The notes under the pieces were generated by a model. That model ran no database searches and was not told where the DNA came from. It worked only from the letters and a program-made list of their open reading frames with translations. From Myxococcus fulvus (GTDB lineage: Bacteria > Myxococcota > Myxococcia > Myxococcales > Myxococcaceae), in NCBI RefSeq assembly GCF_900111765.1, contig NZ_FOIB01000008.1:124001-188000 (forward strand): a stretch of 64,000 bases of DNA. The letters are read 5' to 3'. The position numbers and the translations under genes are program-made. Position 1 is the stretch's first letter. The number at the start of each line of letters is the position of its first letter. Positions 4,456 through 64,000 of the stretch are shown one piece after another.

Positions 4456-4618
4456 GATCCGGTCCTTCTTTTCTTGAATGTGCCTGACGGAACAGAGCAG
4501 GCGGGGCCCTTACTTCCCACGGGACTTGGTTTCCAGCCAAATCCGCATGACGGTGGAGTCCAATACTCGCACCTTCTCCTACAATCTGGGCCCTACCTTA
4601 TATAAGAGGCGGCTTGGA

Positions 4619-4634
4619 CTCTCGCTGTCGAGAG
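4619..4634. promoter_or_regulatory. Perfect inverted repeat in the fusA / SnoaL-like divergent region
   Basis: CTCTCG-CTGT-CGAGAG forms a perfect six-pair inverted repeat in the 213-base region between divergent fusA and the SnoaL-like gene. An AT-rich patch at 4597-4606 (TTATATAAG), unusual here, could supply the -10 region of fusA. No convincing -35 was found. It could be an operator or part of a leader hairpin. Confidence 0.35.
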
Positions 4635-4668
4635 ACTGTCACCGAATTCTTCCGAGGGTTTCTGAACC

Positions 4669-5031: not shown

Positions 5032-5052
5032 AGACCGGGATAGGGTGAGCGC

Positions 5053-5391
5053 ATGGCGACGAACCCCAGCGCCTTCGACAAGGACTTCGGCTACCTGCTC
5101 CCGTTCCTGGACAAGGTGGCCGCCGCGGCGGCGGGCCTCGAGGACCCCCAGGCCCGCGAGGAGCTGACGCGGCTGATGGCGGAGGAGAAGGTCCGCTGGG
5201 AGCGCGCGCGGGAGCTCTTGCGCGGCGCCAGTGGCAAGGGCGGCGGGCGCTCCGACGACCGGGCGTCCCCCGAGTCCGCGCTGGCCCGGGCGTCGGCGGA
5301 TGACGTCCACCGCACGGCGCCGAGCCCCTCGGGCCTCACCGTGGGCAGCCTGAAGAGTGACGGGGCGGCGCCGAAGTCCCGGCGCCCCTGA
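5053..5391 (+). CDS. Hypothetical protein, 112 residues
   Basis: Not recognised. Residues 1-65 are predicted helical and charged (FDKDFGYLLPFLDKVAAAAAG, then a Glu/Arg-rich helix). Residues 66-112 are low-complexity Gly/Ser/Pro/Arg and probably disordered. The ATG at 5053 follows AGGGTGA at usable spacing. It starts 21 bases after the SnoaL-like gene and ends six bases before the convergent sthA stop. Codon use matches the neighbours, which supports a real gene. Confidence 0.6.
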   Translation: MATNPSAFDKDFGYLLPFLDKVAAAAAGLEDPQAREELTRLMAEEKVRWERARELLRGASGKGGGRSDDRASPESALARASADDVHRTAPSPSGLTVGSLKSDGAAPKSRRP

Positions 5392-5397
5392 ACGCCC

Positions 5398-45194: not shown

Positions 45195-45206
45195 AGCTCC
45201 GGGCAG

Positions 45207-45233
45207 GCAACTGGCGGAGCGCCGGGACGATAA
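45207..45233 (+). promoter_or_regulatory. Sigma-28 (FliA)-type promoter before the needle-like gene
   Basis: GCAACTGG (45207-45214), an 11-base spacer, then GACGATAA (45226-45233). The -10 matches the FliA consensus GCCGATAA at 7 of 8 and the spacer is the consensus length. The -35 is closer to the local motif GAAACTT seen at two other sites in the cluster than to TAAAGTTT. The ATG lies 68 bases after the end of the -10. Confidence 0.6.
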
Positions 45234-45300
45234 TGGGAGAAAGAGCACTGGATCATCCGGGAGCTCTGTCTACTTCTTCTCGCAGCGCCTGGAGGATGAA

Positions 45301-45867
45301 ATGGCGAACATCAACAGCATGCAGGGCCCCAGCATCCGGCTCTCTACCCACGTCACGACGGCGCGCCAGACCCCTGAGACGGGCTTCGGCGCTCGGCTCC
45401 ACAACGGGCTGAACAGCGCGGCGGGCGCGGTGGGCACGGGCGTCGGCGCGGTCGCCGGCATGATTCCCGGTGGGCAGATCGTCTCCGCGGCGGTCTCCTC
45501 CGTGCACACGCTGTCCAACACGAGCGGCTCGGGCGCTGGCCCCTACGCCGGCGTGATGAGCACCGCGGTGGGCGTGGGCGGCGGCAGCGTCGGCGGCGCC
45601 TCCGTGGGCGGCGCGGCGGTCGGCATCAGCGGCGTGGCCGGTGGCATCGGCGGCGGCGTGGCCGGTCCGGGCACGGGCGCGCTGGGCACCAGCACGTCGG
45701 ACACCGTCGGCGGCAACTTCTCCCTGAACCAGATGGCGGCGGAGAACTCCAAGCTGCTCAACCTGCAGGCGGCCATCCAGCAGGAGTCGCAGACGTTCAC
45801 GGCGATTTCCAACGTGATGAAGTCGCGGCACGATTGCATCAAGAACTCCATCAGCAACGTCCGCTAG
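45301..45867 (+). CDS. T3S-associated protein with needle-like C-terminus
   Basis: 188 residues from ATG 45301 (GGAGGATGAA upstream). Residues 1-30 are polar. Residues 35-135 are Gly/Ala/Val/Ser-rich and weakly hydrophobic (GVGGGSVGGASVGGAAVG). The last 40 are a charged helix. The final 21 residues align without gaps to the end of Salmonella PrgI (recalled from memory), sharing A, S, N, K, D, I, N and R at the same positions (8 of 21). It may be a needle or filament subunit with a long extension, or a secreted early substrate. First gene of the cluster, behind a sigma-28-like promoter and followed by a hairpin. Confidence 0.55.
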   Translation: MANINSMQGPSIRLSTHVTTARQTPETGFGARLHNGLNSAAGAVGTGVGAVAGMIPGGQIVSAAVSSVHTLSNTSGSGAGPYAGVMSTAVGVGGGSVGGASVGGAAVGISGVAGGIGGGVAGPGTGALGTSTSDTVGGNFSLNQMAAENSKLLNLQAAIQQESQTFTAISNVMKSRHDCIKNSISNVR

Positions 45868-46813: not shown

Positions 46814-47650
46814 TTGCCACTGGGCGACGACAGACAGGCCATCCTCACGAAGTACGGCCCCTACGTTCGGTCCCTCGCGGCGACCGTGCGCAAGCAGTTC
46901 AACGCCCAGCTGGAGCTGGACGAGCTGGTGGCGTACGGACAGATAGGCCTGCTGGAGGCCGCCGAGCGCTTCGACCCGAAGGTGGGCGCCAACTTCCTCA
47001 CCTTCGCCCACTACCGCATCAAGGGCGCCATCTTCGATGGGCTCCGGAAGATGGGCATCCTGCGGGGCTCGGATGCCCGGGCGGCGTATGTCGGGGAGCG
47101 GGCGGCGGCGTATCTGGGGAATTTGTCGGACCGCGAGTCGGGCTCAAGCAACCGCGGCAGCTCATTCGACGATGATGTCAGTGACATCTCGGATGCTGTG
47201 CAGGGGCTGGCGATGGTGTTCGCCTCCAGCCTCGAGGGTGCGGACAGCGCGGGCTACACCGACGAGTCCCTGCCGGTGGACATCCGGCTGGAGCAGGAGC
47301 AGCTGAAGACGCGGGTGCGGGCGGCGATAGAGAAGCTCCCGGAGAAGGAGCGAAAGCTTCTTCAGGGGTACTACTTCCAGGGCAGGACGCTGGAAGAGGC
47401 GGGGGCGGAAATCGGGCAGTCGAAGAGTTGGGCGTCTCGGCTTCATGCGCGCGCCATCGACCGGCTCAAGGAACTCTTGAACGAGGAGGAGGAACTTCCT
47501 CCCACCTCGACGGATGCAAGGAGGCTGTCACATGGCGGGTCCGATGGCGGGCATCTCCGCGGCACAGGTGGCGCAGCAAAAGCTGCAGGATCAGGGCGCT
47601 CAGCAGACGACGAAGCAGGGCGCGTCGAAGTTCGACGGAGTTCTCGCTGA
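46814..47650 (+). CDS. FliA/WhiG-type (sigma-28) RNA polymerase sigma factor
   Basis: 278 residues from a TTG at 46814. Region 2 is clear (LELDELVAYGQIGLLEAAERFDP, FLTFAHYRIKGAIFDGLRKM), region 3 runs to about residue 150 with an Asp/Ser-rich insert, and region 4 is LPEKERKLLQGYYFQGRTLEE followed by the recognition helix KSWASRLHARAIDRLK. This is the FliA subfamily that reads flagellar late promoters. Non-flagellar T3S systems normally lack one. The last ~60 residues are basic and disordered, and the final 119 bases overlap sctI in another frame. It probably drives the three sigma-28-type promoters in this window. Confidence 0.88.
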   Translation: MPLGDDRQAILTKYGPYVRSLAATVRKQFNAQLELDELVAYGQIGLLEAAERFDPKVGANFLTFAHYRIKGAIFDGLRKMGILRGSDARAAYVGERAAAYLGNLSDRESGSSNRGSSFDDDVSDISDAVQGLAMVFASSLEGADSAGYTDESLPVDIRLEQEQLKTRVRAAIEKLPEKERKLLQGYYFQGRTLEEAGAEIGQSKSWASRLHARAIDRLKELLNEEEELPPTSTDARRLSHGGSDGGHLRGTGGAAKAAGSGRSADDEAGRVEVRRSSR

Positions 47651-48083
47651 CAAGGCGCAGGGCGCCGGTCAGGTGGACGCCGCGCAGGGCGTGAACAAGG
47701 CCCAGGCGACGCAGAAGACGGACATGGTCCGGCAGGTGGAGACGGTCAACAAGACGGAGAAGGCGGGCCTGAACAAGGTCAACGCCAACGCCGCCCAGCC
47801 CGTGTCCGCGAAGGCGGCCGAGCCCGTCGCCGCGAAGACGGAGACCGGCAAGACGGCCAAGGCCACCGACATGATGGAGCAGGTGCTCGGTGACCTGGAG
47901 AAGGGCCAGGGCAACCTGGAGAAGATCATCTCCCAGGCCGCCAGCGGCAAGCAGTTCTCCAACGCGGAGCTGCTCTCCCTGCAGGCGTCCATGTATCAGT
48001 ACACCCAGCAGCTGGACCTGACGAGCAAGGTGGTGGAGAAGGCGACCACCGGTCTCAAGGACGTCGTCAAGACGCAGGTCTGA
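47532..48083 (+). CDS. sctI: T3S inner-rod protein SctI
   Basis: 183 residues. The ATG at 47532 has AGGAGG seven bases upstream, better than the earlier ATG at 47514. Long Ala/Gln/Lys-rich N-terminal region, then a C-terminal helix LLSLQASMYQYTQQLDLTSK followed by VVEKATTGLKDVVKTQ, the SctI/YscI/HrpB signature (LQMQ...TSKVV.KAT..L..L.K.Q). SctI forms the rod that joins the export gate to the needle. The start lies inside the sigma gene, so the two are translationally linked. Confidence 0.85.
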   Translation: MAGPMAGISAAQVAQQKLQDQGAQQTTKQGASKFDGVLADKAQGAGQVDAAQGVNKAQATQKTDMVRQVETVNKTEKAGLNKVNANAAQPVSAKAAEPVAAKTETGKTAKATDMMEQVLGDLEKGQGNLEKIISQAASGKQFSNAELLSLQASMYQYTQQLDLTSKVVEKATTGLKDVVKTQV

Positions 48084-48114
48084 GTCCGTCCACCGTCCTT
48101 GGTGGCGCTTGACG

Positions 48115-48149
48115 AAGGGCGGCTCCTCCTGGTTGGAGGGGGCGCCCTT
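48115..48149 (+). terminator. Hairpin between sctI and sctJ
   Basis: AAGGGCG (48115-48121) pairs with CGCCCTT (48143-48149), with an inner CTCC/GGAG stem, followed by a TTTT at 48155-48158. It looks like an attenuating terminator inside the operon. Confidence 0.5.
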
Positions 48150-48186
48150 CCGCGTTTTCCGAGGCCCTAGTAAGCTCCCCGTGCCC

Positions 48187-49002
48187 ATGATTCGCCGACC
48201 GCAAGCGTTTGTCGCCCCGCTCCTCGCCCTCGTGCTCGTGACGGGCTGTCACATCGAGCTCCAGCACGACCTGAGTGAGGCGGACGCCAACGAAATCTAC
48301 GTCCTGCTCAGCAAGAACGGCATCAACGCGAAGAAGGAGAAGGAGGAGGGCGGCAACGAGGTCCGGTTCATGATCACCGTGCCCAAGACGGATGCCGCCG
48401 AGGCCGCGGAGCTGCTCAAGCTCAACTCGCTTCCGCGTCCGGTGGAGAAGGGCCTGTCCCACTTCGCCAAGGGAAGCATGGTGCCCACCGCCACGGAGGA
48501 GCGAGCCATGCTCCTCAAGGCGATGGGCGGCGAGGTCTCCAACGCGCTCAATCAGATCGACGGCGTGTTGGAAGCACGCGCCATCGTCAGCGTCCCGGAG
48601 AACAACGACCTGACGCAGCCGGAGAACAAGCCGATGCCGTCCGCGTCGGTGTTCATCAAGTTCCGGCCTGGCGCGGAGGGCAAGCCGCCCATCGACGTCA
48701 GCGCGGTGAAGTCGTTCGTCGCCACGGCGGTTCCGGAGATGAAGCCGGACGCGGTGACGGTGCTGATGACGCCCGCGCTGGGGCCCAAGGCGGAGAAGAC
48801 CGACGAGAACCGGCAGCAGGACGTGCTGGGCCTGCGCATGACGGCCTCCAGCGCCAGCCAGTTCAAGGTGATGATCGCCGGCGCCTTCGCGCTCATCCTG
48901 GGGATGATGGGCGTCACGGCGTGGTCCATCATGCGCGGTGGTGGAGGCAATGCCCCCACGGCGCGTGGCCCCCGCCCCCGGGTCCGCCCGCCCGAGGCCT
49001 GA
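48187..49002 (+). CDS. sctJ: T3S inner-membrane ring lipoprotein SctJ
   Basis: 271 residues from ATG 48187 (GTG at 48181 possible). Lipobox VTGC, then the YscJ/FliF-like domains: SEADANEIYVLLSKNGINA, the Asn-rich loop, EGELSNALNQIDGV-type motif (here GGEVSNALNQIDGVLEARAIVSVPE), and a C-terminal transmembrane helix (FKVMIAGAFALILGMMGVTAW). SctJ forms the inner MS ring. The C-terminal tail is short and basic. No SctD partner gene was found in the window. Confidence 0.95.
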   Translation: MIRRPQAFVAPLLALVLVTGCHIELQHDLSEADANEIYVLLSKNGINAKKEKEEGGNEVRFMITVPKTDAAEAAELLKLNSLPRPVEKGLSHFAKGSMVPTATEERAMLLKAMGGEVSNALNQIDGVLEARAIVSVPENNDLTQPENKPMPSASVFIKFRPGAEGKPPIDVSAVKSFVATAVPEMKPDAVTVLMTPALGPKAEKTDENRQQDVLGLRMTASSASQFKVMIAGAFALILGMMGVTAWSIMRGGGGNAPTARGPRPRVRPPEA

Positions 49003-51596: not shown

Positions 51597-52271
51597 ATGG
51601 CGATCGGCAAGGTGATCAAGGGAGACGGGACGGCCGAGCCGTCCGTCGTGTCGGAGCGGCCGGTGTTGCGGCCTCCGCGCGCGGGGGTGATGAACGCCGA
51701 GGTCTTCGAGGCGCGCCAGGGCGCCCAGGGCATCCTCGAGGAGGCGCAGCGCGAGAAGGAGCGCATCCTCGCGGAGGCGCAGCGTGAGCGTGAGGCGCTC
51801 CTCGTGAAGACCCGCGAGGAGGGACGCCAGGAGGGACTCGCCCAGGCCACGGAGATCATCCTCCGGGCGAAGATGCAGGCGGGCGAGATCCTCGCCACCT
51901 ACGAGCAGGACGTCATCGCCCTGGGGCTGCGCGTCGGGGAGAAGATCATCGGCCGGAGCCTGGAGAAGGACCCGGACCTGATGCTGGAGCTGTGCGCGTC
52001 GGCCATCGACAACCTGCGCAGCGCGCGCTCCATGGTGCTGCGGGTGCATCCCAAGACGGCGGCGGTGCTGCGCGCGAAGAAGCCGGTGTTGATGGAGCTC
52101 ATCGGCCGCGCGGTGGACCTGGCCATCAAGGAGGACCCCGAGGTGGCCCCGGTGGGCTGCATCGTCCAGACGGAGTTCGGCACGGTGGACGCGCAGCTGC
52201 CCACGCAGCTGGAGATGCTCCAGAGCGTGCTCTTGCCCGACCAGAACGGCCCGAAGGAAGGCCCGGCGTAG
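51597..52271 (+). CDS. sctL: T3S ATPase stator SctL (FliH/YscL family)
   Basis: 224 residues from ATG 51597 (AAGGAG upstream). A long charged coiled coil at about 40-95 (ILEEAQREKERILAEAQRER) precedes the FliH/SctL globular domain with LGLRVGEKIIGRSLEKDPD and VGCIVQTEFGTVDAQLPTQL. SctL dimers hold the ATPase SctN under the export gate. It sits directly upstream of sctN with 25 bases between them, the usual order. Confidence 0.93.
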   Translation: MAIGKVIKGDGTAEPSVVSERPVLRPPRAGVMNAEVFEARQGAQGILEEAQREKERILAEAQREREALLVKTREEGRQEGLAQATEIILRAKMQAGEILATYEQDVIALGLRVGEKIIGRSLEKDPDLMLELCASAIDNLRSARSMVLRVHPKTAAVLRAKKPVLMELIGRAVDLAIKEDPEVAPVGCIVQTEFGTVDAQLPTQLEMLQSVLLPDQNGPKEGPA

Positions 52272-52296: not shown

Positions 52297-53610
52297 ATGG
52301 CCATCGACCTCTCGCGCTATCTCGACCTCATCAAGGACGCCCAGACGGTCCGCGTCCGCGGCCGCGTCACCGAGCTGACGGGCCTCATCATCAAGGCGAG
52401 CGTCCCCAACGTCCGCGTGGGCGAGCTGGTGCTCATCAAGAGCCGCGCCCGCGGCGCCGTGAAGGCCGAGGTCGTCGGCTTCCAGGGCGACGAGGTCATG
52501 CTCATGCCCCTGGGCGAGCTGTACGGCATCGGCCCGGACAGCGAGGTGGTCCCCACCGGCAGGCCCTTGAGCATCAAGTGCGGCGAGGCGCTCCTGGGCC
52601 GCGTGCTCAACGGCATCGGCGAGCCGATGGACGGCAGCCCCCTCCCAGAAGAGGGGCTCATCGACTGGTCCGTGGACCGCGACTGTCCGGACCCCTTCAC
52701 CCGTCAGCGCATCGAGCGGCCGCTGCCCCTGGGCGTGCGCTGCATCGACGGACTGCTCACCGTGGGCGAGGGCCAGCGCGTGGGCCTCTTCGCAGGCTCC
52801 GGCGTCGGCAAGTCGACGCTGATGGGACAAATAGCGCGCAACACCCAGGCCGACCTGTGCGTCGTGGCGCTCATCGGCGAGCGTGGTCGCGAGGTGCGCG
52901 AGTTCATCGAGGACGCCATGGGCGAGGAGGGCATGAAGCGCTCCGTGCTCGTGTGCGCCACGTCCGACCAGCCCAGCCTGGTGCGTCTGCGCGCCGCCTA
53001 CGTCGCCACCGCCATCGCCGAGTACTTCCGCGAGCGCGGCGGCAACGTGCTCTTCATGCTCGACACGGTGACGCGTCTGGCGCGTGCCCAGCGTGAGATT
53101 GGCCTCGCGGTGGGGGAGCCCCCGGCGCGTCAGGGCTATCCGCCGAGCGTGTTCTCCATGCTGCCGCGCATCCTGGAGCGCACGGGCAACTCGCAGAAGG
53201 GCAAGTGCACCGCCATCTACACGTGCCTGGTGGCCGGCGGTGACATGGAGGAGCCCATCGCGGACGAGGTCCGCGGTATTCTCGACGGCCACTTCATCCT
53301 CAACCGCGCCCTGGGTGAGCGAAACCAGTGGCCCGCCATGGACGTGCTCGCGAGCCTCAGCCGTGTGATGAGCGGCATCGTCTCCAAGGAGCACAAGAAG
53401 GCCGCCGGCAAGCTGCGCGAGACGCTGGCCACGTACGAGAAGCAGCGCGACCTCATCCTGCTGGGCGCCTACCAGTACGGGACGGACCCCCGCACGGACT
53501 ACGCCATCGACAAGTACGACGCCATCATCGACTTCCTCAAGCAGGACACCCACTCCAACTCCGGCTTCGAGGAGACGGTGGAGCAGCTGGTGGCCTTGTT
53601 CGAGGAGTGA
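52297..53610 (+). CDS. sctN: T3S ATPase SctN
   Basis: 437 residues, the family's length. Walker A AGSGVGKST with Lys172, catalytic-region GERGREVREF, Walker B NVLFMLDTVTR, and the arginine-finger-containing C-terminal third. The hexamer unfolds and hands over substrates and releases chaperones. GAGEPPARQGYPPSVFSMLP-type substrate motif (here VGEPPARQGYPPSVF) is intact. The flagellar FliI and SctN are closely related; context decides for SctN. A hairpin (53611-53632) follows. Confidence 0.96.
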   Translation: MAIDLSRYLDLIKDAQTVRVRGRVTELTGLIIKASVPNVRVGELVLIKSRARGAVKAEVVGFQGDEVMLMPLGELYGIGPDSEVVPTGRPLSIKCGEALLGRVLNGIGEPMDGSPLPEEGLIDWSVDRDCPDPFTRQRIERPLPLGVRCIDGLLTVGEGQRVGLFAGSGVGKSTLMGQIARNTQADLCVVALIGERGREVREFIEDAMGEEGMKRSVLVCATSDQPSLVRLRAAYVATAIAEYFRERGGNVLFMLDTVTRLARAQREIGLAVGEPPARQGYPPSVFSMLPRILERTGNSQKGKCTAIYTCLVAGGDMEEPIADEVRGILDGHFILNRALGERNQWPAMDVLASLSRVMSGIVSKEHKKAAGKLRETLATYEKQRDLILLGAYQYGTDPRTDYAIDKYDAIIDFLKQDTHSNSGFEETVEQLVALFEE

Positions 53611-53696: not shown

Positions 53697-54185
53697 ATGC
53701 CCCCGTACCGGTTGCAGACCCTGCTGGACATGCGGACCCGGGCCAAGGAGGAGGCCGAGCAGGCCTTCTCCGACGCCATCAAGGCCCTGGAGCGCGAGAA
53801 GGTGGAGCTCCAGCGCCTGATGGACGAGCTGGAGCGGCGCAAGCGCGAGCGCAAGGAGAAGGTCGCCGCCTACCTCAAGGAGATCATGGCCAAGGGTGCC
53901 GGCATCAACGGCATGAACATGATGGGCCGCTTCGAGGAGCGCCTGAAGGACGAGGAGGCGCAGGTGGCGCTGGAGGTCGAGCGTCAGCGTGAAGCGGTGA
54001 AGGTGGCCGAGCGCCTGGTCGAGCAGCGGCGCCGGGAGATGGCCGAGGCGGCCAAGGAGCTCAAGGCCATCGAGAAGCACAAGGAGACCTGGCAGAAGCA
54101 GGTGAAGCACGAGCGCCAGCAGCGCGAGGAGTTGAGCCAGGAGGAGATTGGCAACGCCTTGTTCCTGGCTCGGCAGCGCAAGTAA
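53697..54185 (+). CDS. sctO: T3S ATPase stalk protein SctO (FliJ/YscO family)
   Basis: 162 residues forming one long antiparallel coiled coil (almost all Glu, Lys, Arg, Ala, Leu; a break near GAGINGMNMMG at about residue 67). This is the size and shape of FliJ/SctO, which inserts into the ATPase hexamer and contacts the export gate. It lies directly after sctN, the conserved position. Confidence 0.88.
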   Translation: MPPYRLQTLLDMRTRAKEEAEQAFSDAIKALEREKVELQRLMDELERRKRERKEKVAAYLKEIMAKGAGINGMNMMGRFEERLKDEEAQVALEVERQREAVKVAERLVEQRRREMAEAAKELKAIEKHKETWQKQVKHERQQREELSQEEIGNALFLARQRK

Positions 54186-54218: not shown

Positions 54219-55118
54219 ATGAGCCGTGTCGACGACGACCGTGAAGCAGCGCGCCTGGCCGAGCGCATCATGCAGGAGAAGAAGCTCGCCGAGGGCCAGG
54301 CCAAGAAGCGCCAGGAGGGCACGTCCGCCTTCCAGAAGCTGATGCAGCCGCAGGCGCAGCCCCAGGCGACGGCGCCCACCCAGACGCCCCAGACCCCGGG
54401 CGGTCTGGCACGTCAGGTGCTGGCCAAGGCGACCCAGCAGGGGAAGACCTTCGGCGAGCACCTCCAGCAGCCGCCCCAGATGGGCGGCAACCCCGCCTCC
54501 ACGCTGGCCCAGGCGCAGCGCCGCGGCGACACGAACACCTCGGAGGCTCGCTCCGGCTCGCGCGCCTCGGACGCCAAGGAGACCCAGCGCACCTCCGAGG
54601 GGCGTGAGAAGGACCTGGACAAGGCCGACTCGGCCCTGGGGCAGGTCAGCTCCGAGCGCGGCGCGGCCATCCGCGCGGACGCGGACGCGGGCGGCAAGGG
54701 CAGCGGCGGTGGCGGTGGCAAGGAGGACAAGAAGGGCGGCGGCGGCACGGAGATGGGGGCGGGCTTCCGCTTCAACCCCGCGCTGATGGCGCCGGTGCCA
54801 GTGGCCAAGCCCAAGGACACCGCGGGCTCCGAGCGGCTGCGCGCCATGGCGAGCGAGATCGCCCAGAAGATCGTCGACCGCGTGCGCGTGGGGACGAACG
54901 CCGCGGGCCTGGCCGAGTTCCAGATTGATTTGCGTGGGGATGTGCTCAACGGCCTGTCCATCAAGGTCAGCGCGCGCAACGGGAAGATCTCCGCCACCTT
55001 CAGCGGCACCAACCGTGACGTGCTGAAGATGCTCGAGGAGCAGAGCGACGGGCTGCGCACCGCGCTCGGGGGCCGTGGGCTGAAGCTCGAGACGGTCCGC
55101 TTCGAGGCGAAGACATGA
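54219..55118 (+). CDS. sctP: Needle-length / hook-length control protein SctP (FliK-like)
   Basis: 299 residues. A disordered Gln/Pro/Ala/Gly/Ser-rich first two-thirds, usable as a molecular ruler, then a C-terminal T3S4-type domain at about 200-299 (FQIDLRGDVLNGLSIKVSARNGKISATFSG ... VLKMLEEQSDGLRTALGGRGLKLETVRF, given here in parts), the FliK/SctP substrate-switch fold. SctP contacts SctU to change substrate class. Its stop overlaps the sctQ start by four bases. Confidence 0.8.
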   Translation: MSRVDDDREAARLAERIMQEKKLAEGQAKKRQEGTSAFQKLMQPQAQPQATAPTQTPQTPGGLARQVLAKATQQGKTFGEHLQQPPQMGGNPASTLAQAQRRGDTNTSEARSGSRASDAKETQRTSEGREKDLDKADSALGQVSSERGAAIRADADAGGKGSGGGGGKEDKKGGGGTEMGAGFRFNPALMAPVPVAKPKDTAGSERLRAMASEIAQKIVDRVRVGTNAAGLAEFQIDLRGDVLNGLSIKVSARNGKISATFSGTNRDVLKMLEEQSDGLRTALGGRGLKLETVRFEAKT

Positions 55119-56539
55119 GCGTGGAGCCGGAGGACGAGTCTCCCGGCGTGCACGAGCGCACGATGCTCGTGGACCTGCGCAACCTCAAGCCCGTCAAGCC
55201 TCCTCCCGAGAAGGCCGGCGCGCCGGAGAAGGTGGAGCCGCGTCCCGAGAAGGTGGAGCGTCCCGAGAGGGTCGAGCGGAGCGCCTGGCGTCCCTTCACG
55301 TTCAAGGGGCTGGAGAAGGTGTCGCGCGCGCAGGGGCAGCTCGCCGAGCGGCTGCGCTGGCTGACGCCCAACGCGGGGACGCTGACGGGGGTGTCCGCCC
55401 GGCTCAAGGGGCTCTTCGACGCGGAGGTCGGCCTGTCGCTGGAGTCCGTGCAGGTGCGGCCCATGGCAGAGCTGCGCCGCTTCCTGGGCGACCCGACGTT
55501 CCTCGCGGTGCTGGCGCCCGGGGCGCTGCCGGGGCGGGCGGTGCTCGAGGTGGAGCTGGCGCTGGCGCACACGGCGGTGGACCTGCTGTTGGGCGGCGCG
55601 GGCGAGACGGTGGGCTTGAGGCCCCTGACGGACATCGAGGAGGGCGTGATGGGCTACGTCATCCTGGAGGCGCTGCGGGTGCTGGTGCCCGCGCTCCAGG
55701 CCGGCGTGCCTCGCCCGAGGCTGGACGGGGTCGCCCGAGGCGTGGACGAGGTGTCCGCGCGCCTGGGCGACGACGGGCCGATGTTGACGGTGCACCTGAA
55801 CGCCACGCTGGGTCCGCACGGCGGCATGGTGCGGTTCGTGGTGCCGGCGGCGGTGCTGGAGGCGGCCGAGCCCGCGGTGGAGAGCGCCCAGCGGCGTGCC
55901 CGCGTGAAGGCGGACCTGGCGGCGAACGCGGGGCGGCTGTCGGCGGTGCGCGGGTGGCTGCGGGCGGAGATTGGCACGGCGGAGCTGACCACCCAGGACC
56001 TGGCGAGCCTGCGCGTCAAGGACGTGGTCCTGGTGGACGTGCTGTCGGCGCGGCCGGACCGGGGCGAGCCGGGCACGGCTCAGCTGCGGCTGGGCGCGGG
56101 GCGCTCGGGGCACGCCGAGGCCGAGGTCTTCGTCGAGGACGGGCGCTACCAGGCGCGCATCACCCGCATCATCCCCGGGGAGTCGGGGAACCCGCGCTCG
56201 GCCACCGAGGAGGGTGGGGGGCGGGACGAGGAAGAGGATTTCACCAACCCGGAGCTGGACGTTCCTCCGGAGCTCGAAGGGGCGCCCTTGGACGACGTGA
56301 ACAAGCCGGACGGAAGCGACCTGCTGGGCGACGTGCCGCTGCAGATCGCCGTGGAGCTGGCGCGCATCCCGGTCACCGCCGAGCAGGTGGTGGGCATGCG
56401 GGCCGGTCAGGTCATCGAGCTGAGCCGGGGCCCCGGCGAGCCGGTGGAGTTGTCCATCAACGGCAAGGTGGTGGCCCGCGGTGAGCTGGTGGAGATGGAA
56501 GGCCAGCTCGGCGTGCGCGTCACCACGCTGGCGAGCTGA
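55115..56539 (+). CDS. sctQ: T3S C-ring / sorting-platform protein SctQ
   Basis: 474 residues. An N-terminal linker, a FliM-like middle region, a first SPOA-like domain at about 285-345, and a clear C-terminal SPOA domain at about 400-474 (VPLQIAVELARIPVTAEQVV, GQVIELSRGPGEPVELSING, VARGELVEMEGQLGVRV), the hallmark of FliN/SctQ. It forms the cytosolic sorting platform with SctL and SctN. The four-base overlap with sctP indicates coupled translation. An internal start producing the C-terminal SPOA alone, as in other SctQ genes, is possible but not evident. Confidence 0.92.
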   Translation: MSVEPEDESPGVHERTMLVDLRNLKPVKPPPEKAGAPEKVEPRPEKVERPERVERSAWRPFTFKGLEKVSRAQGQLAERLRWLTPNAGTLTGVSARLKGLFDAEVGLSLESVQVRPMAELRRFLGDPTFLAVLAPGALPGRAVLEVELALAHTAVDLLLGGAGETVGLRPLTDIEEGVMGYVILEALRVLVPALQAGVPRPRLDGVARGVDEVSARLGDDGPMLTVHLNATLGPHGGMVRFVVPAAVLEAAEPAVESAQRRARVKADLAANAGRLSAVRGWLRAEIGTAELTTQDLASLRVKDVVLVDVLSARPDRGEPGTAQLRLGAGRSGHAEAEVFVEDGRYQARITRIIPGESGNPRSATEEGGGRDEEEDFTNPELDVPPELEGAPLDDVNKPDGSDLLGDVPLQIAVELARIPVTAEQVVGMRAGQVIELSRGPGEPVELSINGKVVARGELVEMEGQLGVRVTTLAS

Positions 56540-56627: not shown

Positions 56628-57566
56628 ATGGCAGTCCTCCGCAACCCCCTCTCGCGCCTGACCCTGGGCGTCACGCTGCTGCTCGCGCCCGCGTCCGTGT
56701 GGGCGCAGGCGCCCGTGGCGAGTGCGCCGTCCGTTCCCGCCGCGCCCACCGGGGCCGTGGCGCCGCCGCAGACAGGGCAGGGCGCCTCGGTCGCGCCCGT
56801 CCCCGCCTCGCCTCGTGCGGCCCCAGCGCCTTCTCCGCGCGTCGCTTCCGAGTCGGCCTCGTCGCCCGCCGCGACCTCCGTGGCCGCCGGAGCCGCGGCG
56901 CCTTCCGGACGAGCCCCGGGCGATACGACGGCCCCGAGTGCGCCCACGATGGCCGCCGGCGCTGCCGCACCTTCCGGGCGCGCCACGGGCGCGATGGCCG
57001 TGCCCACGACGGCTGCGCCGGCCGCGGTGCCTGCTCCGGGTGAGTCGTCCGCCGAAAGCGCGCCCGCCGCTCCTCTCGAGAGCGCCCCCGTGAAGGCCGC
57101 CGAGGCGACGCGTCGCACGGGCGAGGCGCCCGTCTGGGAGGACCCGTCCATCGATGCGGCCGCGGCGGCGGAGGCGGAGCCGGAGAGCATGGGCTGGATG
57201 CTCGTGCGCACCCTGATGGTCCTGGGCGCGGTGGTGGCGTCCATCTACCTGACGTTGAACGTGGGCCTGCGCCGGTTGATGGGCCTGCAGTCCGCCTCCC
57301 CGGGGCGGCAGACGGTGGTCTCCGTGGTGGAGCGGCTCCCCCTGGACCCCAAGCGCGCGCTCTTCGTGGTGAAGGCCGCGGACGAATACCTGTTGGTGGG
57401 CGGCGGCGAGGCGGGCCTGCAGTTGCTGTCGAAGCTGGATGCCGAAGCCGTGGAGCGCATCCGGGCACAGCGCCCGCAGACGAACGTGGTTCCACTCAGC
57501 CCTTTCCTCCAGAAGCTCCTTTCCCGTCGCTCCGGTGGCTCGTCGTCCGAGCCCCCTGGCGCCTGA
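56628..57566 (+). CDS. FliO-like protein, next to sctR
   Basis: 312 residues from ATG 56628. Signal-like N-terminus (LTLGVTLLLAPASVWAQ), a 140-residue Ala/Pro-rich linker, a transmembrane helix (MLVRTLMVLGAVVASIYLTL), then the FliO pattern: VVSVVERLPLDPKRALFVVK and YLLVGGGEAGLQLLSKL. FliO assists assembly of the FliP ring in flagella and is normally absent from non-flagellar T3S systems. Here it stands immediately before sctR, as fliO precedes fliP. The long linker is unusual for FliO. The identification rests on motif and position together. Confidence 0.78.
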   Translation: MAVLRNPLSRLTLGVTLLLAPASVWAQAPVASAPSVPAAPTGAVAPPQTGQGASVAPVPASPRAAPAPSPRVASESASSPAATSVAAGAAAPSGRAPGDTTAPSAPTMAAGAAAPSGRATGAMAVPTTAAPAAVPAPGESSAESAPAAPLESAPVKAAEATRRTGEAPVWEDPSIDAAAAAEAEPESMGWMLVRTLMVLGAVVASIYLTLNVGLRRLMGLQSASPGRQTVVSVVERLPLDPKRALFVVKAADEYLLVGGGEAGLQLLSKLDAEAVERIRAQRPQTNVVPLSPFLQKLLSRRSGGSSSEPPGA

Positions 57567-57579
57567 TGGCCCCCTTCCC

Positions 57580-58410
57580 GTGAACGCCCTGACACCCGCC
57601 CTCCCTCGTCTTCCGCGCGTCGCGCCCTGGCTGTTCGCGGCCGTGGTGTCGCTGCATCCCTTCATCGCGCTCGCGCAGAAAAAGGGGCGCCCGGGCGGCA
57701 TCCCCGACTCCGTCGCCAACGAAGCGGTGAGCGCGGACTCCTTCACCTCGCGCCCCCTCGTCCTCATCCTCGCGCTCGCCGCCATGGGCCTGGTGCCCTT
57801 CGCGCTGATGATGGTGACGAGCTTCGTGAAGATCTCCGTCGTCCTCTCCATCGTCCGCTCGGCGCTGGGCACCCAGCAGATTCCCCCCACCCAGGTGATT
57901 ACGGGCCTGGCCGTCATCCTCACCGTCTACATCATGGCCCCCGTGGGCACCTCGATGTACCGGGCCTCCGAGGTGGACATCTGGGACACCGGCGGCGCGG
58001 GCAACTTCTCCTCCGCCAAGGTGGGCACGCTCCTGGAGGGCGCCGACCGCGCCAAGGAACCCCTGCGCGCGTGGCTGATGAAGAAGGTCACGGTGAAGGA
58101 CCGCTCGCTCTTCTACAACCTCGCCAAGAAGATGCGCACGGGCGAGGACCGCGACTCGGTGAAGAGCGAGGACTTCATGGTCATCATCCCCGCCTTCGTC
58201 GTGTCCGAATTGAAGGAGGCCTTCCAGATTGGCTTCCTGCTCTTCGTCCCGTTCATCGTCATCGACATGGTGGTGGCCAACATCCTGCTCGCGCTCGGCA
58301 TGCACATGCTGTCGCCGACCACCATCTCCATGCCCTTCAAGCTGCTCCTGTTCGTGCTCGTGGACGGCTGGTACCTCATCGCCAAGGGCCTGGTCGTCGG
58401 CTACCTGTAA
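57580..58410 (+). CDS. sctR: T3S export-gate protein SctR (FliP family)
   Basis: 276 residues from GTG 57580, 13 bases after the FliO-like gene. An N-terminal signal-like helix (LFAAVVSLHPFIALAQ) resembles the cleaved signal of flagellar FliP and is uncommon in SctR. Then the family motifs: LVPFALMMVTSFVKISVVLSI, ALGTQQIPPTQVITGLAVIL, the periplasmic loop, and IGFLLFVPFIVIDMVVANIL ... GMHMLSPTTISMPFKLLLF. Five copies form the gate with SctS and SctT. Confidence 0.95.
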   Translation: MNALTPALPRLPRVAPWLFAAVVSLHPFIALAQKKGRPGGIPDSVANEAVSADSFTSRPLVLILALAAMGLVPFALMMVTSFVKISVVLSIVRSALGTQQIPPTQVITGLAVILTVYIMAPVGTSMYRASEVDIWDTGGAGNFSSAKVGTLLEGADRAKEPLRAWLMKKVTVKDRSLFYNLAKKMRTGEDRDSVKSEDFMVIIPAFVVSELKEAFQIGFLLFVPFIVIDMVVANILLALGMHMLSPTTISMPFKLLLFVLVDGWYLIAKGLVVGYL

Positions 58411-58423
58411 GAGGAAGGCACCC

Positions 58424-58687
58424 ATGAACCAGCTCACGTTCATCACCCAGGAAGCGCTGTTCCTGGTGCTCGTGGTCTCGGCCCCGCCGGTGTTGATGAG
58501 CCTGTTGGTGGGCTTCATGATCTCCCTGTTCCAGGCGACCACGCAGATCCAGGAGCAGACGCTCACCTTCGCCCCCAAGGTCATCATCGTCTTCGGGGTG
58601 CTCGCCATGACGGGCCCGTGGATCGGCAGCCAGTTGGTGCGCTTCACGTTCCACGTCTTCGACCGGTTCCCCGCCCTCATCAAATGA
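58424..58687 (+). CDS. sctS: T3S export-gate protein SctS (FliQ family)
   Basis: 87 residues, two transmembrane helices (ALFLVLVVSAPPVLMSLLVG and VIIVFGVLAMTGPWIGSQLV) joined by FQATTQIQEQTLTFAPK, the family's most conserved stretch. Four copies pack around the SctR5-SctT ring. GAGGAAGG precedes the ATG. The stop overlaps the sctT start by four bases. Confidence 0.95.
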   Translation: MNQLTFITQEALFLVLVVSAPPVLMSLLVGFMISLFQATTQIQEQTLTFAPKVIIVFGVLAMTGPWIGSQLVRFTFHVFDRFPALIK

Positions 58688-59502
58688 ACGCCGCGGAACT
58701 CGTGTCCGAGCTGGCTGCCCGGACCAACTTCTCCGCCGCCATCTTCACGGTCGCCCTGCTCATGTGCCGGGTGATGCCCGTGCTCATCTTCAGCCCGTTC
58801 CTGGGCGGCGAGGTGGTGCCCACGGAGATGAAGATGGGCATCGGCCTGACGCTGGCCATCGTCCTGTATCCGTCCATCGCGCACTCGGTGACGACCATTC
58901 CCCTGAGCGCGCTGCCGTACATCGCGCTGATGGCCAAGGAGATCTTCATCGGCTTCTCCATGGCCTTCGTCGTCAACGGCGTGTTCGAGGCCGCGCGCAT
59001 CGCCGGCACGCTCGCGGACACCATGTCCGGCAGCAACAACGCCCAGCTCTACGTGCCGCAGCTCGGCCAACAAGTCTCGCTCTTCTCCAACCTGAAGGTG
59101 CAGCTGTCCGTGGTGCTCTTCCTCACCCTGGACGGCCACCACCTGGTCATCCGCGCCCTGGCGGACAGCCTCACCACGGTGCCGCTGGATGGCTTCCCGC
59201 GCTTCAGCCAGGGCTCGTGGACCTTCTTCGACGTGCTCATCCGCGTCTTCGCGGACATGCTGCGCGTCAGCCTGGCCCTGGCGGCCCCCGCCACGCTGGC
59301 CGCGTTCCTCACCGACGTGGCGCTGGGCGCCATCAACCGCGTGGCGCCGCAAATCCAGGTGTTCTTCATCTCCATGGCCATCAAGCCGCTCGTCGGCGTG
59401 CTCATCACCTTCCTGGTGTTGGGGACGTTGATTGGCCGCATCCAGGACGAGCTGGCCCACATGCTGAAGGTGCTCCACGACGCCCTTCGGCTGCTGGCCT
59501 AG
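58684..59502 (+). CDS. sctT: T3S export-gate protein SctT (FliR family)
   Basis: 272 residues with about six transmembrane helices. Family motifs are MPVLIFSPFLGGEVVPTEMK, KEIFIGFSMAFVVNGVFEAA and GSNNAQLYVPQLGQQVSLFS. It closes the SctR ring. The gene order R-S-T-U and coupling to sctS are those of both flagella and injectisomes. Confidence 0.95.
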   Translation: MNAAELVSELAARTNFSAAIFTVALLMCRVMPVLIFSPFLGGEVVPTEMKMGIGLTLAIVLYPSIAHSVTTIPLSALPYIALMAKEIFIGFSMAFVVNGVFEAARIAGTLADTMSGSNNAQLYVPQLGQQVSLFSNLKVQLSVVLFLTLDGHHLVIRALADSLTTVPLDGFPRFSQGSWTFFDVLIRVFADMLRVSLALAAPATLAAFLTDVALGAINRVAPQIQVFFISMAIKPLVGVLITFLVLGTLIGRIQDELAHMLKVLHDALRLLA

Positions 59503-59526: not shown

Positions 59527-60609
59527 ATGTCCGACGAGAGTGGAGACAAGACAGAAGAACCGTCGCAGAAGAAGCTCGACGACTCTCGCAAGAAGGGTCA
59601 GGTCTGGAAGAGCAAGGACCTGAGCGGCGTGGCGGTGCTCGTGGTGGGCCTGGCCGCCCTGAAGGCGAGCTGGGACAACGTCGAGAAGGAGATCTCCAGC
59701 CTCTTCCTCTTCAGCTTCGACCACATGGCCCGGGGCGGGGACCTGTCCGACGCGACGGGGCAGCTGCTCTACCTGGGCGTGCGCGCGCTCTTGCTCGTGA
59801 CGATGCCGGTGCTCCTGGGCGGCGCGGTGATTGGCGGACTGATGGAGTTCCTGCAGGTGGGCTCCCTGTTCACCATGGACCCGCTGATGCCCAAGCTGGA
59901 CAAGCTCAACCCGCTGGGCGGGTTGAAGAACATGTTCAGCAAGAAGTCGCTGGTGGAGCTGCTCAAGAACCTCATCAAGATTTCGGTCACCGCCTACGTC
60001 GTCTACGGCGTGGTGCGCGACGCGATGCCCATGGTGCTGGAGACGGTGCGCCAGGACACGCACACCATCATGGTCATCATGGGGGAGCTGGTGACGCGCG
60101 TGGCCGCGCGCGTGGCGCTGCTCTTCGTCATCTTCGCCATCTTCGACGTCTGGTGGCAGCGCAAGTCCTTCATGAAGGACATGATGATGTCCAAGGACGA
60201 GGTGAAGAAGGAGTACAAGGAGAGCGAAGGCGACCCGCACCACAAGGCCAAGCGCAAGGAGTTCCACCAGGAGATCATGGAGGGCCAGCAGATGGAGGCC
60301 GTGCGGGACGCGGACGTCATCGTCACCAACCCCGACCACGTGGCCGTCGCCCTCAAGTATGACCGGGAGAAGGACGGCGCCCCCCGGGTCCTCGCCAAGG
60401 GCGTGGACCACAAGGCCGAGCGCATCAAGGGCATCGCCCGCGAGCAGGAAGTCCCCACGCTGCGCAACGTGCCGCTGGCGCACGCGCTCCTGCGGGTGGA
60501 GGTGGGCCACGAGGTGCCGGAGGAGCTGTACGACGCGGTCGCCGAGGTCCTCAACTTCGTCTACGAGCTGAAGAACGGCGCCCCCCAGGCCCCCGCGGCC
60601 CGCGCATGA
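59527..60609 (+). CDS. sctU: T3S switch protein SctU (FlhB family) with NPDH cleavage site
   Basis: 360 residues: four transmembrane helices (about 35-205), a charged linker, and the cytosolic autoprotease domain. The cleavage motif reads N-P-D-H (residues 268-271) instead of N-P-T-H: the Asn-Pro needed for self-cleavage is kept, and Thr is replaced by Asp. The following HVAVALKYDREKDGAPRVLAKG and VPTLRNVPLAHALLR are typical. The usual PTH loop interacts with the substrate-switch protein, so the change may affect cleavage or SctP recognition. Confidence 0.95.
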   Translation: MSDESGDKTEEPSQKKLDDSRKKGQVWKSKDLSGVAVLVVGLAALKASWDNVEKEISSLFLFSFDHMARGGDLSDATGQLLYLGVRALLLVTMPVLLGGAVIGGLMEFLQVGSLFTMDPLMPKLDKLNPLGGLKNMFSKKSLVELLKNLIKISVTAYVVYGVVRDAMPMVLETVRQDTHTIMVIMGELVTRVAARVALLFVIFAIFDVWWQRKSFMKDMMMSKDEVKKEYKESEGDPHHKAKRKEFHQEIMEGQQMEAVRDADVIVTNPDHVAVALKYDREKDGAPRVLAKGVDHKAERIKGIAREQEVPTLRNVPLAHALLRVEVGHEVPEELYDAVAEVLNFVYELKNGAPQAPAARA

Positions 60610-60655: not shown

Positions 60656-60937
60656 ATGAGTGACGACGCCGAAATCGCCATCGCGCTGAAGTACGACAAG
60701 GAGAATGACGGCGCTCCGCGCGTGGTGGCCAAGGGCCTGCGGCTCAAGGCGGAGAAGATTCGCGCCATCGCCAAGGAGCACGGCATCCCCGTGATGCGCA
60801 ACGTGCCCCTGGCCAACGCGCTGTACCGGGTGGACGTGGGCCAGGAGGTGCCCGAGGAGCTGTACGACGCGGTGGCCGAGGTCCTCAACTTCATCTACGA
60901 GCTCCAGCGGGAACAGGCCGCCTCGGGCGGCAGGTAG
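60656..60937 (+). CDS. Stand-alone FlhB/SctU C-terminal domain protein
   Basis: 93 residues matching only the part of SctU after the cleavage site: AIALKYDKENDGAPRVVAKG, IPVMRNVPLANALYRVDVGQ, PEELYDAVAEVLNFIYEL, nearly identical to the end of the preceding sctU (VPEELYDAVAEVLNF in both). It lacks the membrane part and the Asn-Pro-x-His. Free FlhB_C-like proteins (YlqH/FlhX type) exist beside flagellar genes and can partly replace the cleaved piece. Here, directly after sctU, it looks like a duplication of that gene's 3' end. Confidence 0.85.
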   Translation: MSDDAEIAIALKYDKENDGAPRVVAKGLRLKAEKIRAIAKEHGIPVMRNVPLANALYRVDVGQEVPEELYDAVAEVLNFIYELQREQAASGGR

Positions 60938-61474: not shown

Positions 61475-61939
61475 ATGCCGGAGGACCCTCAGGACGAGGC
61501 ACAGCTGGCGGCCCGGCTGCAGCGTTGGGCGGATGGAAAGTCCACGCTGCGCGAGGTGCGCGGCTATTCCAACGACGAGCTCTACGCCATCGCCAAGACG
61601 GCGTACTTCTTCTTCTACCAGGGGCGCATCAACGAGGCCCGCACGCTCTTCCAGGGCCTGTACGCCGTGAACCCCACGGACGGCTACTTCGCCAAGGCCC
61701 TGGGCGTGGTGGAGATGGCCGCCGGCAACGGGCAGGGCGCCCTGGCCGCCTTCGACGTGGCCGCCAAGCTTTCCCCGCAGGACCCGTCCGTCTACGTGGG
61801 CCGCGCCGAGGTGAAACTGGCCCTGGGTCAGAAGCAGCAGGCGCTGGAGGACCTTCGCCGCGCCGCGGCGATGACGCCCCAGGATGATCCCGTGGTGCGC
61901 AAGGCCGGCGCCATGGTGACGGCGCTCACCCGGCGCTGA
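61475..61939 (+). CDS. SycD/LcrH-like TPR chaperone
   Basis: 154 residues with three TPRs. The sequence ELYAIAKTAYFFFYQGRINE-ARTLFQGLYAVNPTDGYF has the first-repeat pattern of class II T3S chaperones (SycD/LcrH/IpgC), which hold translocator proteins before export. The rest follows with LGVVEMAAGNGQGALAAFDVA and ALEDLRRAAAM. No translocator gene was recognised nearby, so the client is unknown. Confidence 0.8.
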   Translation: MPEDPQDEAQLAARLQRWADGKSTLREVRGYSNDELYAIAKTAYFFFYQGRINEARTLFQGLYAVNPTDGYFAKALGVVEMAAGNGQGALAAFDVAAKLSPQDPSVYVGRAEVKLALGQKQQALEDLRRAAAMTPQDDPVVRKAGAMVTALTRR

Positions 61940-62061: not shown

Positions 62062-62655
62062 ATGAGCACGCAGAAGGCGAAGATGGGCGCGCTGCCGCCA
62101 GAGCCCGCGGCGCTGGTGGAGAAGCGCGAGAAGCTGCTGGCGGAGCTGGAGAAGCAGTCGAAGACGGCCGAGGGCACCTTCCTCCAGGTCGTCCGCACCA
62201 TGAAGATGCTGGTGTCGTCCACCACGCCCGGCGCCCCGTTCGATGAGCGGCTCTATGCCGACGTGTCCGGCGCGCTCGAGCGCTTCATGGCGGACCCCAT
62301 CCTCCCCGTTCCTCCCGCGCTGGGCATGGTGGTGTCGTACCTGTCCGAGCGCCTGAACACCTACGGGATGACCATTCAGAACGCCGTCAAGGAGGCGAAC
62401 CCGGAGATGCACGCGAAGCTCGCGTTCACGCCTCCGAGCGCCCCGCAGGCCCCCGCCCCGGCGGCGCCGGCCGCGGCGGCCCGCGCCCCCGCCGCCAAGG
62501 ATGGCTTCGAGAGCGGCTCTTCTCGCCGGGGCCTGGCCCTGGACCCCGAGGCCAGCCCCCCTCCGCCCGCGGCGGACCCGAAGAACGAGCAGCAGAAGCT
62601 GGAGGGGTTCAAGGCCTGGATGAAGAACCCGAGCCTTGGAAAGATCAAGGGTTAG
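62062..62655 (+). CDS. Unknown protein of the T3S cluster, 197 residues
   Basis: Start at 62062 (GGAGAG upstream); an earlier ATG at 61984 is less likely. Residues 15-120 are helical (VEKREKLLAELEKQSKTAEG, FDERLYADVSGALERFMAD, PALGMVVSYLSERLNTYG). Residues 120-197 are Pro/Ala-rich and disordered. Not recognised. Position between chaperone and needle candidate suggests a secreted or accessory component. Confidence 0.6.
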   Translation: MSTQKAKMGALPPEPAALVEKREKLLAELEKQSKTAEGTFLQVVRTMKMLVSSTTPGAPFDERLYADVSGALERFMADPILPVPPALGMVVSYLSERLNTYGMTIQNAVKEANPEMHAKLAFTPPSAPQAPAPAAPAAAARAPAAKDGFESGSSRRGLALDPEASPPPPAADPKNEQQKLEGFKAWMKNPSLGKIKG

Positions 62656-62718: not shown

Positions 62719-62745
62719 GAAACTTCTGAACCCCTCCCCCGATAA
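62719..62745 (+). promoter_or_regulatory. Sigma-28 (FliA)-type promoter before the needle candidate
   Basis: GAAACTTC (62719-62726), exactly 11 bases, CCCGATAA (62738-62745): the -10 matches GCCGATAA at 7 of 8. The -35 keeps AAA-TT of TAAAGTTT. The distance from the -10 to the ATG is 66 bases, nearly the same as at 45207-45233. Confidence 0.7.
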
Positions 62746-62810: not shown

Positions 62811-63029
62811 ATGAGCATCTCTGCCAACTTCAACGCCGCTGCGAGCAGCATCCTGGCCGGTTCCAAGGCCTCCAACGACATGATCGCGGCGGCCCCGAAG
62901 GATCAGCAGCCGTTCCTCCGCGCGCAGGAGCAGATGCAGCGCGAGGCCAAGCTGGTGGAGCTCATCTCCAACTCGATGAAGAAGATCGAGCAGATGCAGA
63001 GCGCCATCGTCGGCAACATGCGCGGCTAG
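62811..63029 (+). CDS. Candidate T3S needle protein (SctF-like)
   Basis: 72 residues, within the size range of needle subunits (about 70-90). AGGAGAACGTCC precedes the ATG. The last 45 residues line up without gaps to the end of Salmonella PrgI (recalled from memory): A, P and D of the turn (APKD against KPSD), then Gln, Ser, Asn, Lys, Ala, Ile, Asn and the near-terminal Arg, about 12 identities in 45. The layout is helix, Pro turn, helix, as in needle proteins. The gene has its own sigma-28-like promoter and a strong hairpin behind it, as expected of a highly expressed filament subunit. No search was possible. Confidence 0.65.
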   Translation: MSISANFNAAASSILAGSKASNDMIAAAPKDQQPFLRAQEQMQREAKLVELISNSMKKIEQMQSAIVGNMRG

Positions 63030-63057
63030 TCGTAGCCCGCAGCCTGCAGCACCCTGG

Positions 63058-63088
63058 CCTCGCAACAGCTCTCCGAGCTGCTGCGGGG
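63058..63088 (+). terminator. Strong hairpin after the needle candidate
   Basis: CCTCGCAACAGCTC (63058-63071) pairs with GAGCTGCTGCGGGG (63075-63088), 13 of 14 positions, loop TCC, followed by TTCATTTT. It makes the needle candidate a separate transcript. Confidence 0.7.
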
Positions 63089-63148
63089 CCGGTTCATTTT
63101 CGGGCCGGTTGCTTTCGGGCTGGGTTGGACAAGGCCCCACGCCTGTCC

Positions 63149-63206: not shown

Positions 63207-63662
63207 ATGGTCGCTCCTGTCAACGGCGGTTCCCGCTCCATCCCCTCGCAGAAGACCGCGTCGGAGTCCACGACCCAGACCCCGTCGGATCCGGCCGCGG
63301 AGCGGGCCAAGCAGAAGTCCACCATGGACGGCATCCGCAAGAAGGACGAGACCAAGCTGACCGGGGGAGATCGCGAGAACTACGCGAACGCCAAGGGCAC
63401 GGACCTGCTGCTCGAGAACAAGCCGTTCCTCGGCTTCTTCCCCGACTCCGTGTCGGAGACCATCGCCAAGAAGATGGATGAGGACGTCGCCAGCTACCTG
63501 AAGCAGCATCCGGATGCGTCCCTGAAGGACATCGACAGCCACATCGGCGAGCGCTTCAAGACGCACATGTTCAGCGCCGTGGTCGCCCAGAAGGGCGTGG
63601 ACATGGCCATCGCGAACCTCAAGAAGCAGCTGCAGAAGATCCGCGACGGCTTCGACGACTAG
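63207..63662 (+). CDS. Possible T3S substrate or accessory protein, 151 residues
   Basis: Start ATG 63207 (GGAG upstream). A Ser/Thr/Gln-rich polar N-terminus of about 40 residues, typical of T3S secretion signals. Then a mainly helical, charged body (DRENYANAKGTDLLLENKPF, SETIAKKMDEDVASYLKQHP) and a C-terminal amphipathic helix (GVDMAIANLKKQLQKIRDGF). No family recognised. It follows the needle candidate and its own weak sigma-28-like site; it could be a secreted early substrate, tip protein or regulator. Confidence 0.6.
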   Translation: MVAPVNGGSRSIPSQKTASESTTQTPSDPAAERAKQKSTMDGIRKKDETKLTGGDRENYANAKGTDLLLENKPFLGFFPDSVSETIAKKMDEDVASYLKQHPDASLKDIDSHIGERFKTHMFSAVVAQKGVDMAIANLKKQLQKIRDGFDD

Positions 63663-63750: not shown

Positions 63751-64000
63751 ATGACGACGACCCAAGCCAAGGCGCCGGTCTCCGAGAATGATGTGAAGCC
63801 GTTGTCCGGCCCGGCGCTGCTGGAGCGGGCCACGCAGGGCTTCGACCTGTTCCAGGAAGGACGCTTCCAGGAGTCGCTGGCCCTCTTCGAGGAGCTGGCC
63901 GGCATGGATGGCTCGGAGGCGTACTTCCAGACCGCCCTCGGCGCCTGCCACCTGGCGCTGGAGAACCTGGACCAGGCGGAGGCCTACTTCAACCGGGCCA
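63751..64000 (+). CDS. TPR protein, partial (3' end outside window)
   Basis: The first 83 codons are visible. A polar N-terminus (about 20 residues) leads into TPR helices: LLERATQGFDLFQEGRFQES, LALFEELAGMDGSEAYFQTA, LGACHLALENLDQAEAYFNR. The pattern resembles the SycD-like gene at 61475, so it is probably another T3S chaperone. The cluster evidently continues to the right. Confidence 0.75.
   Translation, partial: MTTTQAKAPVSENDVKPLSGPALLERATQGFDLFQEGRFQESLALFEELAGMDGSEAYFQTALGACHLALENLDQAEAYFNRA

Follow-up and report, generated by a model that had tools for sequence, protein, structure and literature searches.

Within the 64,000-nucleotide stretch of Myxococcus fulvus DNA analysed here (the window), a gene for a 72-residue protein very probably specifies SctF, the major needle subunit of the myxobacterial T3SS*. 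The gene displays clear needle homology, occupies a constant position between sctU and sctV, is preceded by a dedicated FliA-like promoter, has multi-copy versions in relatives and co-occurs with T3SS genes, while its expression, and the export of its product and assembly of that product into a filament, are inferred. This assignment concerns a system that has been described for more than ten years as having no needle. In the tree of Abby and Rocha (2012; PMC3459982), the myxobacterial system forms the deepest non-flagellar T3SS branch, and those authors argued that it may not secrete to the outside; the Myxo systems were reported to lack SctF, which was judged detectable if present and hence lost. 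T3SS* is termed needleless in reviews of 2023 and 2024 and by Herrou et al. (2025), and the predation literature of 2023-2025 contains models, built on the absence of a needle, in which Tips replace the missing structure. Our literature search retrieved no report of SctF in Myxococcota; the pairing of SctF with Myxococcus or Myxococcota appeared in Abby and Rocha alone, as an absence.

The gene, its signals and its immediate neighbours are as follows:

62811..63029, + strand: sctF-like needle subunit gene, 72 aa with an ATG start, supported by the ORF, PF09392 and family-profile evidence
62719..62745, + strand: FliA/sigma-28-like promoter, GAAACTTC-N11-CCCGATAA, located by motif scans and conserved before the needle genes of other genera
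63053..63091 (approximate limits), + strand: RNA hairpin with a poor U-tract, a possible terminator, from folding of 63030-63110
62062..62655, + strand: p197, of unknown function, conserved directly upstream of the needle gene(s) by synteny
63207..63662, + strand: p151, of unknown function, the next gene after the needle gene by synteny and itself preceded by a GAAACTTT-type motif

The reading frame was confirmed as real and stands apart from both neighbours, with 155 bp of intergenic DNA on its upstream side and 177 bp on its downstream side. Its protein is conserved in sister species (94, 89 and 86% identity) and is under purifying selection in the closest species pair (dN 0.033, dS 0.31); in comparisons beyond the closest relatives, dN approaches or exceeds dS. 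Searches of Rfam and PHROGs gave no match.

A preliminary description made from the sequence had read this gene as a needle subunit gene with a sigma-28-like promoter, a good ribosome-binding site and a strong terminator, and apart from the terminator it was right. The ribosome-binding site, CAGGAGAACGTCC-ATG, is present. The promoter motif is the sole match in the window with two or fewer mismatches (0.06 expected), and the 10.8-Mb genome contains a single exact match; in other species, GAAACTYC-N11/12-CCCGATAA lies about 50-80 nt before the start of nearly every short needle copy, and 93% of short needle genes reach a promoter score of at least 11 of 14, compared with 2.9% of shuffled sequences. 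The hairpin behind the gene is indeed very stable (z = -3.2; folding of 63030-63110 gives -41.1 kcal/mol), but a proper U-run is missing and the terminator scan did not call it; the combined sigma-70 and terminator scan returned nothing on the strand of the needle gene.

The identity of the protein rests chiefly on profile comparisons, since single-sequence searches gave scores too weak to decide. A family profile that included more distant Myxococcota relatives, compared with 177,635 PDB sequences, matched EsaG at E = 5.4e-7, MxiH at 0.0028 and PrgI at 0.03, and all 12 PDB matches with E ≤ 1 were needles or needle fusions. An HMM built from 30 short relatives, without the N-extended rows, matched chain F of PDB entry 7y6c at E = 1.7e-5; this chain comprises residues 33-73 of EsaG, the needle protein of Edwardsiella, in complex with its co-chaperones (PMC9426511). 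The alignment with short relatives and the broader one, both free of misread loci, gave the same ranking of needle matches in the PDB. Among relatives, PF09392 (T3SS_needle_F) was the most frequent top Pfam family (18 of 38, best E = 2.3e-8), a count made on an alignment in which one locus had been taken from the wrong strand, and one relative genome exceeded the PF09392 cut-off with 33 bits. Taken alone, the 72-residue protein of the window falls below the gathering score (17.2 vs 29.4 bits, E = 0.006), which is a database threshold rather than a biological trait. Comparison by hhalign with Bordetella/Achromobacter-type needles gave P = 0.0024 in the expected register, and both MxiH and PrgI aligned end to end with the whole protein. 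With PrgI letters taken from the PDB alignment, the last 45 residues of PrgI and of the 72-residue protein match without gaps, as the preliminary description had stated, at 11 identities rather than the approximately 12 it had counted (shuffling mean 3.1, P = 1.3e-4). On these comparisons, homology of the predicted protein to SctF, as a divergent member of the family, is near certain.

A predicted fold unlike the needle hairpin would have spoken against this reading. The AlphaFold model (pLDDT 76) instead begins with a helix that is interrupted, passes through a turn containing Pro and ends in a long C-terminal helix; the helices span residues 3-15, 19-27 and 33-71. A plain Foldseek search of the PDB with this model gave nothing significant, and needles emerged only after VIA re-alignment: among the 24 best Foldseek candidates so re-aligned, MxiH ranked first (Z 7.0), and three further T3SS chains were listed (PrgI, one more needle protein and a chain from the Salmonella export apparatus complex), together with unrelated hairpins. 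A two-helix hairpin is generic, and we regard the model as consistent with a needle subunit rather than decisive. The corresponding model of the M. xanthus protein is of low confidence (pLDDT 56) and too poor for a structure search.

The distribution of the family follows that of the secretion system closely. A plain search of the genomes of the family Myxococcaceae found the protein in about half, and the absence from M. xanthus-type genomes suggested by the first search for relatives (E ≤ 0.01) was overturned by an iterated profile. Profile searching recovered the needle in 94 of 96 genomes at E ≤ 1e-3. With the broader profile, the needle family is present in each of the 95 genomes with sctU and missing from the only one that has no sctU. 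Across the phylum (n = 195 genomes, SctU at E ≤ 1e-30), both occur together in 150, the needle family occurs without SctU in 12, SctU alone in 7 and neither in 26; five of the 12 have FlhB/SctU by Pfam. Presence without T3S genes, which would have contradicted the needle reading, is thus confined to the seven remaining genomes, in which no SctU is detectable; of these, five are 66-87% complete and two 94-95% complete.

Gene order across genera runs sctU, sctU C-domain, p159, SycD1, p197, needle(s), SycD2, sctV. M. xanthus AM003 has the same order as the window, with an 83% identical sctU and a 74-residue needle copy beside it (positions 6954-7178 of locus L111); related genomes with this M. 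xanthus copy type have two needle copies. From gene content and order, by which the DK1622 locus tags were matched, we infer that the cluster of the window is the M. xanthus MXAN_2434-2464 system. The profile matches to real needles, the conserved synteny and promoter, and the M. xanthus copy all support the needle-subunit interpretation.

Most other genera carry two to seven near-identical tandem copies of the needle gene. Coding DNA of copies within a genome is 95-100% (mostly 97-100%) identical, and in nearly all of them the sequence farther upstream is divergent in an ungapped comparison, a pattern that points to homogenisation by gene conversion or to recent duplication. Near-identical tandem copies break draft assemblies, and contigs end directly after p197 in several draft genomes, which may help to explain why the needle gene has been missed. 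Several genomes also have extra small needle genes scattered well away from the T3SS cluster (three loci in one genome and five further loci).

The surrounding cluster contains the following parts:

45200..45240 (approximate), + strand: related promoter GCAACTGG-N11-GACGATAA, ending 67 nt before 45301
45301..45867, + strand: second needle-domain protein, 188 aa, with a Gly-rich N-terminus and a C-terminal needle motif (ISNVMKSRHDCIKNSISNVR), by profile comparison and PF09392
45960..46394, + strand: TPR chaperone of the SycD/needle-chaperone type (TIGR02552 6.5e-13, SctY 2.4e-6, both below cut-offs)
46814..47650, + strand: FliA-like sigma factor (Sigma70_r2/r4), candidate reader of the needle promoters, the pairing being inferred
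47532..48083, + strand: SctI-like inner rod (PF17001 E = 0.0017 over the C-terminus, below cut-off), conserved in relatives
48109..49002, + strand: SctJ (YscJ_FliF 5e-24)
51597..52271, + strand: SctL (FliH/T3SS_SCTL)
52297..53610, + strand: SctN ATPase
53697..54185, + strand: SctO (YscO-like 8e-50)
54219..55118, + strand: SctP/FliK-type needle or hook length ruler (Flg_hook 2.7e-7)
55115..56539, + strand: SctQ (FliMN_C, FliM)
57439..58410, + strand: SctR (FliP 1.7e-68)
58229..58687, + strand: SctS (Bac_export_3)
58618..59502, + strand: SctT
59527..60609, + strand: SctU (TIGR01404 1.9e-117)
60656..60937, + strand: free-standing second SctU/FlhB C-terminal (switch) domain, after sctU
61475..61939, + strand: SycD/LcrH TPR chaperone, two genes before the needle gene, at a conserved position by synteny (TIGR02552 110.9 bits, above cut-off)
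63751..64000, + strand: start of another SycD/LcrH TPR chaperone, continuing past the window and followed by sctV

SctV and an FHA/YscD-type protein lie beyond the window. Several further features of the cluster deserve mention in their own right. The free-standing SctU/FlhB C-terminal domain is kept in nearly all relatives compared. Between sctJ and sctL, positions 49170-51572 encode a long repetitive protein with a weak FliG_C match (0.003) in its N-terminal part, possibly an SctK-like or FliG-like component. Also inside the T3SS cluster, past the window (positions 4622-5704 of locus L004), is a gene for a DUF1521 protein (PF07481, 1e-17) that carries a GDPHV motif, and a SycD-type gene comes next; DUF1521 is the domain of NopE-type rhizobial T3SS effectors, and the protein is a candidate self-cleaving T3SS substrate. 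No tip or translocon proteins were recognised by Pfam in the genes scanned, which did not amount to a systematic search.

We propose that the FliA-like sigma factor of the cluster, by inference the natural candidate to read the needle promoters, would transcribe the needle gene strongly. In needle-chaperone complexes the C-terminal helix of the needle protein is held by a TPR chaperone, and a TPR chaperone may hold the same helix of the myxobacterial subunit, which would then be exported through SctRSTUV and polymerise on the SctI-like rod, with the SctP/FliK-type ruler determining the length reached. Where the filament would end is less clear. The cluster has no secretin (SctC), the three secretins of the genome all being encoded elsewhere, the nearest about 65 kb away, so a surface needle is not guaranteed, and the needle may either stay periplasmic or pass through another outer-membrane pore. 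T3SS* co-localises with the Tad/Kil machinery at prey and its recruitment depends on Kil (PMC12075869), and for this reason the Tad/Kil secretin is suggested as a possible route.

Overlapping with the preferred reading is the possibility that needle assembly is restricted to the periplasm, where an ancestral needle would serve as a channel or sensor and never be exposed at the surface. The missing secretin is in keeping with such an arrangement, and a periplasmic SctF structure in the ancestor was discussed by Abby and Rocha (PMC3459982); set against these points, the combination of fast divergence between species with near-identical copies within genomes would suit contact with a variable outside, albeit as indirect evidence, and we consider confinement to the periplasm possible but rather doubtful.

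The second needle-domain protein complicates the assignment of roles. Its profile matches that of the small needle family at P = 2e-9, PF09392 is its top Pfam family (best E = 0.0015), and its gene is the first of the cluster in 19 of the 20 upstream regions fetched from relatives, the remaining one being a short contig; in relatives, its promoter takes the variant form GCAACYG-N11-RCCGATAA. This N-extended paralogue is probably a minor needle component, such as a cap, base or adaptor. The roles could conceivably be reversed, with the 188-residue protein the true needle and the small protein, although of the needle family, serving in the inner rod or as an adaptor: the gene of the N-extended protein is single-copy and heads the cluster, the protein's own ending supports this too, since its C-terminus is nearer to the canonical SN..K..D..K.xI.N.R needle ending, and in the shorter second T3SS of the genome an N-extended protein comes right before SctI. 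Yet it is the small protein that is multi-copy, has its own promoter and is of needle size (72-78 aa), and a rod identity for it was judged unlikely, given that a separate SctI-like protein exists and that profile comparison of the latter with the needle family detected no similarity; we hold the reversed assignment to be unlikely. The N-extended needle-tail protein located directly before the SctI of the second system has a counterpart in a relative. In outgroup genera, N-extended proteins occupy the slot of the small needle gene, and the short form may therefore be derived.

Needle tails also occur on much larger proteins. One distant Myxococcota genome (G118) has 28 needle-tail matches, and at the five loci examined the tails form the C-termini of proteins of about 500-1400 residues. 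Several of these are arranged in tandem, and a TPR chaperone-like gene usually comes next; the proteins are candidates for needle-docked T3SS cargo. The genome of the window itself encodes, far from the T3SS cluster (positions 2463-4596 of locus L199, contig C2 at about 617 kb), a needle-tailed protein of up to 534 residues with weak NolX and EF-hand matches and a SycD/LcrH-type chaperone gene after it, a candidate translocator or effector. Since a tail that ends large proteins with TPR-protein genes mostly following can act as a modular export or docking signal, the small protein might be a secreted substrate, regulator or effector that shares with needles just their chaperone-binding C-terminal helix; its needle size over the whole 72 residues and its end-to-end alignment with MxiH and PrgI make this very improbable. 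A chance resemblance of an unrelated amphipathic helical hairpin, a common enough structure and one that the weak single-sequence scores do not exclude, is hardly credible when needles alone top the PDB profile search, the Pfam result is shared by many relatives and T3SS clusters are where the gene is located.

Extending the SctF assignment, we tentatively envisage, as a speculation that may well prove wrong, that the T3SS* of predation is a genuine injectisome lacking a secretin of its own, whose needle passes through a borrowed pore (e.g. the Tad/Kil secretin), and that the Myxococcota needle domain is modular and fused to large proteins with TPR chaperones. Much as with evolved T6SS spike effectors, cargo could then be mounted on the needle or exported together with it.

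At the gene level, the needle gene of M. xanthus, as predicted from its sequence, contradicts both Abby and Rocha (2012) and the papers on a needleless T3SS*, its function being inferred. It removes the missing-needle premise of the predation models and opens the way to direct deletion, labelling and filament experiments on prey lysis by these predators; the phenotype published for T3SS* is a loss of prey lysis while killing persists. The gene further lends support to the view that the ancestral injectisome already possessed a needle when it had no secretin yet, and the needle-tailed cargo constitutes a new lead.

In comparison with known systems, the myxobacterial protein resembles the SctF needles (EsaG/SsaG, MxiH, PrgI, YscF, BscF; PF09392) in size, conserved C-terminal arm and full-length alignment with MxiH and PrgI, its predicted hairpin is consistent with theirs although generic, and its gene is likewise linked to sctI, sctP, TPR chaperones and the export apparatus. 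It differs in being too divergent on its own for the Pfam cut-off and in often being present as multiple near-identical copies, and the system differs in its FliA-like promoter, its cluster without a secretin and its N-extended paralogue. Flagellin and the late flagellar genes under sigma-28 (FliA) offer an analogy, in that a GAAACT/CCGATAA-type promoter drives a filament subunit and the cluster includes a FliA-like sigma gene; however, the needle protein is not a flagellin, and the single exact occurrence of the motif in the genome indicates that, unlike the FliA-dependent late flagellar genes, it does not define a large regulon. The M. xanthus T3SS* (MXAN_2434-2464) is by synteny the same system, with a sctU about 83% identical in AM003; it is a system which was published as having no needle homologue and in which a needle gene is here found beside sctU.
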